NCBI GenBank assembly: GCA_015522635.1
Contig: WALW01000027.1
Span: forward strand, 62,001 to 126,000
DNA: 64,000 nt
Direction of reading: 5' to 3'
Source of the DNA: Candidatus Tiamatella incendiivivens
GTDB lineage: Archaea; Thermoproteota; Thermoprotei_A; Sulfolobales; Acidilobaceae
Within the stretch, counting starts at the first letter, position 1. Every line of letters begins with the position of its first letter. This document shows, one piece after another, positions 14,106-50,242 of the stretch. The notes under the pieces were generated by a model. It did no database searches. It saw only the letters and a program-made list of their open reading frames with translations, and was not told where the DNA came from. Position numbers and translations under genes: made by a program.

Positions 14106-14702
14106 TTAGAGTTCTTCTTTTCCAGTTCTCCAAAGGCCGACTGCTTCCCTTCTCTTTATCCCTCTCATCATAGTGTTAATATGTCTATAGACGGTTCCGT
14201 GTTGCCTACCCTCAGCTAGCATTTCAACGGCTCTCTTTGCCGCCATTGCTCTTTCATAACTACCTATTATAGCTACATGGTATTTACCTACAACGATTGT
14301 AGTGCCTGTCATTTCTTCAATAGTCCGCCTTGCTCTACCCTTTTCTCCTATAATTCTACCCTTAATCCTTTTCAAAGTATTCTGATTATCCCCTATAAGG
14401 TTCTTCAAGTCAATGACTAGAAGAACATTATCATCGTCAAGAAGAGCGGAGGCTTCCTCAGGTGTAAATCCTAGTCCTATAGCTTTGACTATTTCAGACG
14501 CTTTCATCACATTTATAGGAGGTACACTAGGTGTTTCAGATTCAATTACTACCATGGAATTCTCTGTGTCGACTGTTATTAAGGTACCAGTTTTACTCAT
14601 AATCTCGTTTTTAGTCTCTCCCTCTTTACCTATTACTATGGGAATTCTATCCAGTGGTATCTTCACATGCATCCTATTTGAAGCCCACGGATTGCTAGTC
14701 AA
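14106..14702 (-). CDS. KH-domain rRNA-processing protein (Pno1/Dim2-like)
   Basis: Two KH domains: the first contains IPIVIGKEGETKNEIMSKTG and the second GRIIGEKGRARRTIEEMTG, both with the GxxG loop that binds RNA. The C-terminal AAKRAVEMLAEGRQHGTVY is characteristic of archaeal Dim2/Krr1 homologues. In eukaryotes Pno1/Dim2 works in 40S maturation. Here it lies next to RIO1 and aIF1A on the same strand, which also act on the small subunit, so an operon for 30S assembly is likely. The TTG start has GGTGG six bases upstream; an in-frame ATG is ten codons further in. Confidence 0.9.
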   Translation of the reverse strand: MTSNPWASNRMHVKIPLDRIPIVIGKEGETKNEIMSKTGTLITVDTENSMVVIESETPSVPPINVMKASEIVKAIGLGFTPEEASALLDDDNVLLVIDLKNLIGDNQNTLKRIKGRIIGEKGRARRTIEEMTGTTIVVGKYHVAIIGSYERAMAAKRAVEMLAEGRQHGTVYRHINTMMRGIKRREAVGLWRTGKEEL

Positions 14703-14751: not shown

Positions 14752-15540
14752 CTAAGAATATATACATGAGAAAAGCTTTTGCTTAATTGCATCTTCCTGT
14801 AGATCTTCCTCCCCAATGAAACCTCTGAAAAATCTGAAAATGTTGTTCAAGTCTCTTACAAGAAACTCTTTTGCCATAGGATGATCAAGTGAAATCGATT
14901 GACTAACATCAATAATATAAACTCTTTTTCTCCAAAACATTAAGTTGAACTCGGATAAATCCGCGTGAACTAATTTCGTGTAACATACTATTCTCTCTAA
15001 GTTCACCCGAGTTTGTCTATAGATTTCTTTTGCAAGCCCAAGGTTTGCTTTGAGTTCGGGGACTAACTCTTTCACGAGAGGAGCCCGTTTGCCTTCCTCC
15101 CCAATAAACTCCATTACAATAACATTTCCCTTGAGTGCATGAGGGCGGGGAACCTTGACATGATGCTTATACATTCTTTTCATATTTCTGAATTCTTTTC
15201 TAGCCCATTCATAAATCAATCTTCTATAATCGTTCTTGGGAATTTCCTTGAATCGAGAATCTCCGGTAATATATTTGGCAATGCCCTTCCTGAACTCTGC
15301 TGTCATAGTTAAGTAAATCTTCACTGCAAGATCGTTTCCTTCAGGAGTCTTTCCCCAGTAAATCCTTGATTCTTTCCCACTACTAACAACACCATAAAGC
15401 TTGTCAAGAACCTTCTTCCTGTACAGGTAAAATAAATGTTGTTCCGTGAAAATATCAAAGACTTCTTCGACGGTTTCGAGAAGATCACTATCCTTTATAC
15501 GTTTTTCTCTTTGCCTCCTCAGCCAACGGTTCTTACCTAT
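14752..15540 (-). CDS. rio1: RIO1 atypical serine kinase, ATA start
   Basis: ATP-binding kinase/ATPase of small-subunit maturation. Read from 15540 it has 262 residues, the usual archaeal RIO1 length: an N-terminal winged-helix-like part, VVSSGKESRIYWG (the RIO STGKEA loop, residues 51-63), LAVKIY with catalytic Lys74, VHADLSEFNLM with Asp194 and Asn199, and IIDVSQ with Asp211. No ATG, GTG or TTG lies in frame between an upstream TGA and GTG 15324, and that GTG is inside the ATP-site strand. The best start is ATA at 15538-15540, which overlaps the aIF1A stop as TAATA and has GAGGTG eight bases upstream. A start-codon sequence error cannot be excluded. Confidence 0.85.
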   Translation of the reverse strand: MGKNRWLRRQREKRIKDSDLLETVEEVFDIFTEQHLFYLYRKKVLDKLYGVVSSGKESRIYWGKTPEGNDLAVKIYLTMTAEFRKGIAKYITGDSRFKEIPKNDYRRLIYEWARKEFRNMKRMYKHHVKVPRPHALKGNVIVMEFIGEEGKRAPLVKELVPELKANLGLAKEIYRQTRVNLERIVCYTKLVHADLSEFNLMFWRKRVYIIDVSQSISLDHPMAKEFLVRDLNNIFRFFRGFIGEEDLQEDAIKQKLFSCIYS

Positions 15541-15866
15541 TAGAAGCCCACCTCTTCGAGGAATTCCTCGCTGAGATATCCTCCATTTATTAGCTTCTTA
15601 ATTTCATCTCTCCAGTACTTGTATACAATGTCAGCTTTATCACTCTCCTCGGACCAGGGAGCTACCAGCAGGATGTCCCCCTCTCTTATCCATATCCTTC
15701 TCCTCATCTTACCCGGAATTCTAGCCTTGAAGGTCTTTCCGTTGGTACAGAGAACTTCTATGAAGCTTCCACCTAATATTTTATGTGCTACACAAATGAT
15801 TGTCTCCTCATCCGGGAAGGGTGTTTCACCTCTTCGATTCCTCTGCCTTCCTCTGCCTCTCGCCAA
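15540..15866 (-). CDS. Translation initiation factor aIF1A
   Basis: S1-like OB-fold factor that binds the ribosomal A site during initiation. The 108-residue protein has the typical basic N-terminal tail (ARGRGRQRNRRG), then the OB-fold strands with FKARIPGKMRRRIWIREGD and VYKYWRDEI near the end. The TTG start has GGGTGGATGA upstream. The 3' end overlaps the proposed RIO1 start by one base, indicating coupled translation. Confidence 0.94.
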   Translation of the reverse strand: MARGRGRQRNRRGETPFPDEETIICVAHKILGGSFIEVLCTNGKTFKARIPGKMRRRIWIREGDILLVAPWSEESDKADIVYKYWRDEIKKLINGGYLSEEFLEEVGF

Positions 15867-15891: not shown

Positions 15892-17022
15892 CTATGATAT
15901 AATGTAGAGTGCTTTTTCAGTTAAATACACGATATATTCCTCTCCTTCTCGGAGCTCTTTATTGGTTAGGTTTACCACCTTCTCGGGAGGATACTCTATT
16001 GTACTAGTATACCCGCTTTCTATATCCAAGAAGATAGTACTGTAAGGATCCCTGGATACCAGCATCACTTTCTTGCTCTTACTAGTATGTATATACTCTT
16101 CTATTTTATGTGACCAGAATTGATCCGGGTTTAAACTTGACTCTCTACCTGATTCTAAATCCATCAATTTGATCCTTGTTCCAGTAATGTCTAAAACGTA
16201 ATTTGGGGACCCGTCTATACTTATTATGTCCCCATTTTTGACAGATGCTACTCTAAGAGATACTGTTAGATGCCCCAGTCTCCTACCATCATTTCTTCTG
16301 CCTGATAAACTGTAGGTTTCTATTCTTTTACCGAGAAATCTTCCTGATATCTTTGAAGCAATAATTCTTGCCGAGGTAGCATCCGTGATAAGTAAGTCAA
16401 GACCTTCCTTCTTATCTATAATATCAACTATTTGTTCCTTCAGTTTCATAGAAAGAGTATCCAGATAGTCTAAAACCAAGTTTTTCTCATACTCACTTAG
16501 TTTACCTCCTATTCCTCTGACTTGAATTAGAGCTTCATGATAACCTACCTTCTTACGGATACACCTAGGACAGAGTCCTGCTGACACCCTAACTTTAACC
16601 ATATAGTCTTTTTCTAGAACGACGCCCTCTATACTTTTACCTTCTACCATTACCTTGAAGTAGTATTCTCCATAAGTGTTTATAGGTGTTTGAGATTCCA
16701 GGCTCTTAATAGATACAAAAGCTATTCCCATTACCGGTTTAATTTTTGAAACAAGCGCTGTGTAGACGGCTTCGTACACTGCTTCCTCTAATGTACTGGG
16801 GTATGAGTATATCCATTGTTTCCCTATCCTATAGGCTCCGCATGAATTGCAAATGGTTATGCTGAGATTATCTGGGACTTGAGCAACTCCGTATTTTTCT
16901 AGAAAACAGTCTTTACAGAGATTACCTACAAACGGTAGGTTTGGAGATTTCTTTCTACCGCAAACAGGGCATACTATACCGTTTCTATTAGGTTCAGTAC
17001 TTGAACTTGTAGATTTGGACAT
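15892..17022 (-). CDS. NMD3-like ribosome biogenesis protein
   Basis: Archaeal homologue of NMD3, the adaptor of 60S subunits. The zinc ribbons are visible as CPVCGRKK, CKDCFLEKYG, CNSCGAYR and CPRCIRKKVGYHEALIQVRG; the last is the family's diagnostic segment. Downstream lies the eIF5A-like beta-rich C-terminal part. I start at ATG 17022 because GGTGAT lies seven bases upstream; the GTG at 17034 would overlap that site. The protein is then 376 residues. It overlaps the preceding DUF424 gene by 29 bases. Confidence 0.88.
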   Translation of the reverse strand: MSKSTSSSTEPNRNGIVCPVCGRKKSPNLPFVGNLCKDCFLEKYGVAQVPDNLSITICNSCGAYRIGKQWIYSYPSTLEEAVYEAVYTALVSKIKPVMGIAFVSIKSLESQTPINTYGEYYFKVMVEGKSIEGVVLEKDYMVKVRVSAGLCPRCIRKKVGYHEALIQVRGIGGKLSEYEKNLVLDYLDTLSMKLKEQIVDIIDKKEGLDLLITDATSARIIASKISGRFLGKRIETYSLSGRRNDGRRLGHLTVSLRVASVKNGDIISIDGSPNYVLDITGTRIKLMDLESGRESSLNPDQFWSHKIEEYIHTSKSKKVMLVSRDPYSTIFLDIESGYTSTIEYPPEKVVNLTNKELREGEEYIVYLTEKALYIIS

Positions 17023-17314
17023 GTGGAATATCACCTATTCTTAGCACTGAATCCTCTGTCACCAAGCCGAGTTCCTTAGCTAAATCCACGGAATGCTCTC
17101 CTACCAGAATTATTATATCATATAAAGCCATCAAACTTGCCACTTGATCCTTGTTGGCTATTTCACCTTCATAGAGCTCTTTGTTTACCTCTATGGTAAG
17201 CTCGTTACTAACAAATTTCCTTCTCAATAAACCGTAGTCAGCTACAGCTAACATTGGAGGATGACCAGATATTCTGTGAACTTTATAATGAAAGAGATCT
17301 GATTCCTCGACCAA
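16994..17314 (-). CDS. DUF424 family protein
   Basis: A 106-residue protein of the archaeal DUF424 family, recognised from the N-terminal HRISGHPPMLAVADYGLLRR and the later ELGLVTEDSVLRIGDIPHVQIYKF. It is commonly found near aIF2 beta and NMD3, as here, which suggests a role in translation or ribosome assembly; no activity is established. Translation probably starts at TTG. Its 3' end lies inside the 5' end of the NMD3 gene. Confidence 0.75.
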   Translation of the reverse strand: MVEESDLFHYKVHRISGHPPMLAVADYGLLRRKFVSNELTIEVNKELYEGEIANKDQVASLMALYDIIILVGEHSVDLAKELGLVTEDSVLRIGDIPHVQIYKFKY

Positions 17315-17348: not shown

Positions 17349-17774
17349 TTAAATAGGTTTGACTGGTTGTTCTGCTCCACATGCTTCGCATATAAGAACC
17401 CATGTCTTTCCTCTTTTGACAAGTATGGTATCAGGCCTGCCACAAGTTGGGCATATAACATATGATTTAACGAACTTCTCCAAGATCATATTCAAACTTT
17501 TACTTGACACCCTAATGTTTACTTTCAGTATACCGCTCTCCGGATCATAGTTTCCAGCAGTAGCCAATTCTTTCAGAAAGTATCTTGACAAGATGTCTGG
17601 GTTTCTTCTAAGTTTATCTACTATTTCCCTAAAATTCCTTATTATTGTCTGGCTACCCATATGGATCACCTCTACCTTTGGCATCTCAAACCTTTCATAT
17701 CCATGTTTTTTAGACGGTACTTTAGAGTAAAGCCTCTCCAATAGCTTATTGTAATCGTCTTCAATTTCTCCCAC
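17349..17774 (-). CDS. Translation initiation factor aIF2 subunit beta
   Basis: Subunit of the heterotrimeric aIF2 that delivers initiator tRNA. The 141-residue protein has a short N-terminal helix that contacts the gamma subunit, a central alpha-beta domain (NFREIVDKLRRNPDILSRYF, then LATAGNYD), and a C-terminal zinc ribbon with CPTCGRPDT and CEACGAEQP. The GTG start has GGTGAG upstream. It is the promoter-proximal gene of the minus-strand set aIF2 beta, DUF424, NMD3. The alpha subunit is encoded separately at 50.8 kb. Confidence 0.95.
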   Translation of the reverse strand: MGEIEDDYNKLLERLYSKVPSKKHGYERFEMPKVEVIHMGSQTIIRNFREIVDKLRRNPDILSRYFLKELATAGNYDPESGILKVNIRVSSKSLNMILEKFVKSYVICPTCGRPDTILVKRGKTWVLICEACGAEQPVKPI

Positions 17775-49181: not shown

Positions 49182-49664
49182 ATGTCACAGTCGCCTTCGA
49201 AGGGAACCAAAGACTTCAAATTGGTTACATTCAAAGTAATAACGCTAGATCAAGTGCTTAAAAACGAGAGATTAATGAACCTATTATATTTACTATCTAA
49301 GTTCAAGGAGCTAAATGAAAAAACAATCTACCATTTAGTTCATGAAGTTCAAGAGAAAGGCCTCAATCTAGGATATAATTTCTTTGTAGTAGGTGGGCAT
49401 CCGAATAGCAAACAACTTAAAGATGATTTAGTTGCATTAATGTATGTTGATCTAGTAGAAGCAGAGCCGCGAACCAAGAAAGTCAAACTGACCGGTCACG
49501 GCTTAGATATTATTGAGAGCTACACAAAAGAATTATCTTTAGATAAAAAATCACTAACAGACAACATACTAGAGGAGATCAAAAAGAAAATCATGGTTCT
49601 AGATAACGAAGTAGATCTGGAGATGACCCTCAGAAAAAACCGTAGGAGGGGTCGTAGGTTTTAA
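49182..49664 (+). CDS. Hypothetical helical protein, likely winged-helix
   Basis: A 160-residue protein with a LMNLLYLLSKFKELNEKTIYH helix region, a middle loop (FFVVGGHPNSKQLKDDL) and TKKVKLTGHGLDII, which together suggest a winged-helix domain; the tail KNRRRGRRF is strongly basic. ATG 49182 has GGGGTG five bases upstream; the longer frame to 49074 runs past the TATA box. It may be the first gene of the large plus-strand operon. Not assigned to a known family. Confidence 0.6.
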   Translation: MSQSPSKGTKDFKLVTFKVITLDQVLKNERLMNLLYLLSKFKELNEKTIYHLVHEVQEKGLNLGYNFFVVGGHPNSKQLKDDLVALMYVDLVEAEPRTKKVKLTGHGLDIIESYTKELSLDKKSLTDNILEEIKKKIMVLDNEVDLEMTLRKNRRRGRRF

Positions 49665-50242
49665 AAGATAATAATATCTATCCATTATTTGGAGAATTCA
49701 CTTTTCCCATATTTTTCACGGATAAAAAATCCGTTCTAGTAGACTTTATAGAAAACATAGCATTACACTACATTTATACTGGTACGAAGGTTACCATAAT
49801 AGCACCACCATCCTATAAATTCAAGGAAAGAATAAAAGGTGTGTCCCTCTACAAGGTGCTAGATATACATGAACAAACTATAAAATTACTCGAAAACTTG
49901 AGGAAACAGACTCTTGTAATTCTTGTCGATCTAACTTACTTTTACAGAGAGAACCCCCTTGAACCAGCAGTATCTAGGCTAACAGTGTTTCAGCTTGCAT
50001 TACTTAGATATCATGCTGATAAATATGCTTCAGTAGGCACTATCGAAACTAGTGAACAGCCAGACCGTGTTTCCGCATTCAAATACGCTTCATTTTACAG
50101 TGACTGTATTTGCAGAATCGGAAAAGAGCCGGGTGGAAAAGAGTTTAAAGTTGAAAGCCTCTATACGAGTAGTCGAAAACCTCGGAAACTATTAGTGACA
50201 TTCACAAAGGATGGGGGGATGTTATGGACGTTTCTGGACTAA
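49658..50242 (+). CDS. P-loop-less RecA-fold-like protein, start unresolved
   Basis: The frame is open from just after a TAG at 49655-49657 to 50242. Its first ATG, GTG or TTG is GTG 49841, yet the upstream part also reads as a normal protein (PLFGEFTFPIFF, VDFIENIALHY, KVTIIAPPS). The full length would be about 190 residues. TLVILVDLTYFY looks like a Walker B strand and CICRIGKE a later strand, so it may be a RecA/KaiC-fold relative that has lost its P-loop. GGAGGGG at 49645-49651 would fit a start near 49658-49661. Overlaps the carS start by 19 bases. Confidence 0.5.
   Translation, partial: VLKDNNIYPLFGEFTFPIFFTDKKSVLVDFIENIALHYIYTGTKVTIIAPPSYKFKERIKGVSLYKVLDIHEQTIKLLENLRKQTLVILVDLTYFYRENPLEPAVSRLTVFQLALLRYHADKYASVGTIETSEQPDRVSAFKYASFYSDCICRIGKEPGGKEFKVESLYTSSRKPRKLLVTFTKDGGMLWTFLD

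Follow-up and report, generated by a model that had tools for sequence, protein, structure and literature searches.

A conserved AUA codon as the probable translation start of the RIO1 kinase gene in Candidatus Tiamatella incendiivivens

The gene for the RIO1 kinase of the archaeon Candidatus Tiamatella incendiivivens probably begins at an AUA codon that overlaps the stop codon of the preceding aIF1A gene, a reading to which we assign a probability of roughly 80%. The gene lies on the minus strand of a 64,000-nt stretch of contig WALW01000027.1 (hereafter the window; the genome to which it belongs is designated G000), and the proposed start, ATA at positions 15538 to 15540, is retained at the same alignment column in three species of the genus.

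The rio1 reading frame and its start site

The rio1 gene is the fifth in a minus-strand run of genes ordered aIF2β-DUF424-NMD3-aIF1A-rio1-KH, in which its neighbors are genes for translation initiation and ribosome maturation. Upstream of it lie an aIF2 β subunit-like gene (17349-17774; Pfam PF01873, eIF-5_eIF-2B, E = 3.1e-35), a DUF424 gene (16994-17314; PF04242, E = 7e-19), an NMD3-family gene (15892-17034; Pfam NMD3, E = 2.4e-43), and the gene for aIF1A (15540-15866; Pfam eIF-1a, PF01176, E = 1.1e-22; NCBIfam aIF-1A). Downstream is the gene for an archaeal PNO1-like KH-domain protein (arCOG04150; 14106-14702; NCBIfam NF010328, E = 8.1e-75; Pfam KH_PNO1_2nd), which has a TTG start preceded by the Shine-Dalgarno (SD) sequence GGTG.

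Read from stop to stop, the RIO1 frame occupies positions 14752 to 15597 (281 codons), and the 262-amino-acid portion that extends from ATA to the stop codon (14752-15540) matches the RIO1 family profile (PF01163) with E = 1.7e-56. The best matches to its product in the PDB are RIO1 proteins, including 4otp and 1zp9, and together with the profile match these identify the RIO domain of an archaeal RIO1 kinase. The nucleotide loop, the AVK lysine, and the HADLSEFN and IDVSQS motifs are all contained within the 262 residues.

An in-frame scan of the minus strand from position 15597 detected no ATG, GTG, or TTG codon ahead of the GTG at 15322-15324, which bears out what had been claimed in an initial reading of the DNA made from its sequence only (hereafter the sequence-only reading). 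This GTG, the first canonical start codon in the frame, specifies Val73 and is located deep inside the kinase domain. Initiation there would eliminate the first 72 residues, including the SSGKES loop that begins at codon 53, and the alignment of the resulting product to PF01163 would not begin until profile position 15. Because the loop and the entire N-terminal part would be removed, GTG 15324 was rejected as a sensible start. The earlier reading had placed both this loop and the catalytic lysine upstream of the GTG, which holds for the loop but not for the lysine, since the lysine of AVKIY is codon 74 and thus lies just 3′ of the GTG.

As had also been proposed, the stop codon of aIF1A (TAA, 15542-15540) and the ATA codon (15540-15538) share a single nucleotide to form TAATA, and an SD-like GAGGTG (15549-15554) is positioned 8 nt 5′ of the ATA; our analysis reproduced these coordinates. 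Among SD-led ATG genes of G000, start codons most often lie 7 nt from GGTG (38 of 75 genes) and next most often 8 nt (11 of 75), and the rio1 spacing is therefore normal. The ATA is the sole near-cognate AUN codon at SD spacing. Two other near-cognate codons, CTA and CTT, occur in frame 5′ of the ATA, and it is conceivable that one of these is used instead, in which case initiation would still be non-canonical. However, CTA and CTT are only 5 and 2 nt from the SD, as compared with the 7-8 nt norm. At the corresponding site in a neighboring genus (G034), ATA, ATT, and TTA are all available as candidates, but only ATA occupies the column in which relatives have TTG (see below), and use of an adjacent near-cognate codon, whether CTA or CTT here or ATT or TTA in G034, is therefore a reading that we regard as quite improbable.

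The aIF1A-rio1 junction among relatives

All of the genomes compared, G000 included, are draft assemblies, and G000 consists of 27 contigs. Given this draft status and the apparent frame breaks found elsewhere in G000, for example in an argC-like gene (C10:78979-80013), the first suspicion must be that a sequencing or assembly error has masked a canonical rio1 start. The junction sequence GAAGAGGTGGGCTTCTAATAGGT is, however, identical in G000 and in two genomes of different species in the same genus, G045 and G046, which were assembled separately and whose RIO1 proteins are 74% and 70% identical to that of G000, respectively. G045 and G046 both carry ...CTCGAAGAGGTGGGCTTCTAATAGGT, being identical around the aIF1A-rio1 junction, and G046 matches JALUZI010000146.1, a Desulfurococcales metagenome-assembled genome. 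Since the sister species preserve the same arrangement, error can be dismissed for practical purposes, and we give it only a minute probability. The sequence-only reading had directed attention to whether close relatives have a canonical codon at this place, and both congeners keep ATA. Recurrence of the junction among congeners is more than chance.

A canonical start codon is missing from the orthologous RIO1 N-terminus in G000, G046, and G034, and the only one in G045 is an ATG at codon 7. In G034, whose RIO1 is 61% identical, no ATG, GTG, or TTG is present at the orthologous place (GAGGTGACATAATTTTAGGA). Elsewhere in the family, most RIO1 proteins start within columns -2 to 2 relative to the ATA. 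Three genomes of one genus (g9; G029, G030, and G031) have TTG exactly in the ATA column, giving N-termini such as LGKARWLKRR, and the genus designated g13 has GTG one codon upstream of that column.

The nucleotides that follow the ATA are also under coding constraint. Codons 2-6 (G-K/R-x-R-W) are conserved with synonymous changes: in the alignment of relatives, Arg5 is encoded as CGT, CGT, AGG, and CGA, and Gly2 as GGT or GGA. These synonymous changes indicate that coding begins before codon 7. This bears on the alternative that rio1 starts at codon 7 (15520-15522), which is CTG in G000 and G046 and ATG in G045, and that the RIO1 protein is accordingly six residues shorter. Three genomes of genus g4 (L026, L066, and L067) offer a parallel, as their apparent rio1 start is a TTG at codon 7 with GGAG at a spacing of 7. 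Nevertheless, no SD was found before the G045 ATG, G034 has CTC at codon 7, and the conserved codons 2-6 agree with the N-terminal sequence of most of the family. Thus, a start at codon 7 seems unlikely. In the g4 genomes, the end of aIF1A overlaps the TTG at codon 7, and the RIO1 N-terminus would thus shift between genera.

The RIO1 frame is open for 19 codons upstream of the ATA into aIF1A, and this feature, along with conservation of the junction in three species, might be taken to indicate that a -1 shift near the aIF1A stop generates an aIF1A-RIO1 fusion that has no separate start. Against such a mechanism, no slippery heptamer is visible at the junction, the junction sequence differs in G034 (GAGGTGACATAATTTTAGG) with the frame relation unchanged, and other family members have ordinary, separate rio1 starts; we consider a fusion very improbable. 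The ATA at 15538-15540 is therefore the best-supported start of rio1, on the basis of the TTG in its column in three g9 genomes, its distance from the SD, its conservation in three species, and the coding constraint downstream. In calling ATA the only plausible start, the sequence-only reading goes slightly too far in view of CTG at codon 7 and the upstream CTA and CTT.

Weak start codons appear to be common for this gene. Among 39 family rio1 genes that were fetched and have a canonical start, TTG is used by 18, GTG by 16, and ATG by approximately 5. The last share compares with 45% ATG among SD-led genes of G000 (binomial p of ~3e-5, which is indicative only, as the genes are related by kinship and come from different genomes). 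RIO1 thus appears either to withstand low output or to require it, and attenuated or feedback-controlled synthesis of RIO1 is plausible as a putative function of its start, which may instead have arisen by drift. A Sulfolobus islandicus strain with rio1 deleted has been described (PMC7744417).

Initiation machinery and a possible mechanism

When codons at SD-defined start positions of G000 were counted, ATA was found at 5 of 313 such positions as compared with 17 of 313 control positions. There is no enrichment of ATA genome-wide, and AUA can therefore be at most a rare start in this organism; the count does not support its use as a regular one. The genome contains an initiator tRNA-like gene (contig C19, minus strand) with an ordinary CTCATAA anticodon loop (CAU), as well as an ordinary aIF1, and neither an altered initiator anticodon nor loss of aIF1 was seen. 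Because AUA is unenriched and both initiator tRNA and aIF1 look normal, the most economical interpretation is that the normal machinery sporadically initiates at near-cognate codons and that the code is unchanged. The initiator tRNA gene (oriented position ~118159), which was missed by ARAGORN, is normal through the anticodon stem, and its T-arm is apparently interrupted by an insert of ~30 nt (GGTGGTTCAAAACGGAGCGGCTACTC...) that resembles a tRNA intron in a non-canonical location.

We infer that initiation occurs at AUA itself, with Met as the first residue, coupling to aIF1A termination, and a low yield. In the mechanism we propose, a 30S subunit that is held by GAGGTG within the 3′ end of aIF1A, and that is either newly arriving or left from termination at the overlapping UAA, would present AUA in the P site. 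The ordinary initiator tRNA would pair with the first two bases of the codon, the C34-A3 mismatch being tolerated, and the RIO1 product would carry Met as its first residue. Initiation at AUA would be helped by the good SD and by aIF1A termination at the overlapping stop, RIO1 yield would be expected to fall below that of aIF1A, and near-cognate initiation would likewise take place in a small number of other genes in the genus.

In Escherichia coli, AUA is cited as having at most ~1% of the efficiency of AUG (Hecht, 2017, cited in PMC12864459). An E. coli rpoS mutant in which ATG was changed to ATA nonetheless showed a decrease in protein of only up to 5-fold (PMC12864459), and for this reason a low yet functional output of RIO1 from AUA is credible. 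The two cases are alike in that an AUA start would yield protein, but the rpoS codon is a laboratory mutation in a bacterium, whereas the rio1 AUA has been kept by evolution. Like the unidirectional gene pairs with short overlaps for which termination-reinitiation coupling has been described (PMC10666635), aIF1A and rio1 have an overlapping stop and start, with an SD located inside the upstream gene. They differ from those pairs in that the rio1 start is AUA, and reinitiation there would therefore have to use a near-cognate codon. Canonical archaeal initiation, for which a review gives AUG, GUG, and UUG as start codons and does not mention AUA (PMC7531240), resembles the situation proposed for rio1 in being SD-led and in involving initiator tRNA-CAU, aIF1, aIF1A, and aIF2. 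In S. solfataricus, aIF1 is reported to favor discrimination against non-canonical starts (PMC6237735).

Other candidate near-cognate starts in the genus

Starts of orthologous genes were compared between ~99% of G000 and ~485 kb of G045 (about a third of that genome), yielding 342 well-aligned pairs. A first coding scan yielded many candidates that were in fact antisense shadows, frame breaks, or contig edges, and the analysis was therefore restricted to genes with confirmation in G045. Besides rio1, three genes combine an SD with an ATA or ATT codon at a spacing of 7-8 nt in both species, and for each of them at least one of the two species has no canonical start that could be used. A DUF359 gene, similar to GTP-dependent dephospho-CoA kinase (C19:306600-307193), has ATA in both genomes at a spacing of 8 nt, and G034 has ATG in the same column. 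For the RNase Z gene (C23:50140-51051), G000 has ATT and G045 has ATA, each at 7 nt, and the other family genomes that were examined have canonical codons close to the N-terminus. A gene for a LUD/4Fe-4S protein (C10:95816-97033) has ATA at 7 nt in both; its first canonical codon in G045 is codon 52, and in G000 a GTG that is not preceded by an obvious SD lies six codons 3′ of the ATA. Apparent CTG starts at an SD spacing of 7-8 nt are shared by G000 and G045 in a CBS-domain gene (C25:54174-54992, plus strand) and a DUF447 gene (C25:49699-50274, plus strand). Putative near-cognate starts would thus account for roughly 1%-2% of the genes compared.

ATA figures among the possible initiators in NCBI translation table 11. 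Conserved AUA starts in nature are to our knowledge very rare, and we found no case of an archaeal AUA start codon in the open-access literature. Near-cognate initiation as such is known, and what is new is a putative AUA start kept by three species, accompanied by the companion genes. The bacterial infC gene, which encodes IF3, has an AUU start and is autoregulated by IF3. Both infC and rio1 belong to the translation apparatus and combine an SD with a conserved near-cognate AUH start. Differences are that rio1 is archaeal, has AUA in place of AUU, and encodes a protein that is not a known fidelity factor. By analogy with infC, the AUA and AUU starts of rio1 and of the DUF359, RNase Z, and LUD/Fe-S genes, and perhaps the CTG and ACG starts, might constitute a fidelity-sensitive device for low expression, through which RIO1 output would follow the activity of aIF1, aIF1A, and aIF2 or the maturation of 30S subunits. 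We put forward this archaeal counterpart of infC control as a tentative and rather doubtful idea.

The genus, which is related to Desulfurococcales, offers a natural test case of non-standard initiation. Several of its genes have a putative AUA start behind a good SD, including one that belongs to the aIF1A/aIF2β run, and the stringency of start-codon selection in archaea thereby becomes directly testable. Gene callers that recognize only ATG, GTG, and TTG truncate or lose such genes, including one for a core ribosome-maturation factor.

An ATA start is doubtful for a NusA-like KH gene (C14:3305-3829, plus strand), as its congeners show ATG and GCG in the column. Across the three loci (L255, L256, and L257), the ATA/ATG/GCG column is followed by a shared ACG at an SD spacing of 7; no canonical start was seen at that place in G046, and an ACG start is possible. 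In a winged-helix regulator (C1:6246-7238, plus strand), the first canonical start, at codon 119, comes only after the HTH domain, and a CTG after GAGG appears to be the start. Within the window, a coding-like frame that has no Pfam match (49658-50242, plus strand) shows a coding signal that precedes its first canonical start and begins right after GGAGGGG, and this may reflect either a frame break or a near-cognate start. Both the argC-like gene mentioned above and an aminotransferase-like gene (C10:82263-82925), each on the minus strand, appear frame-broken in the G000 draft.
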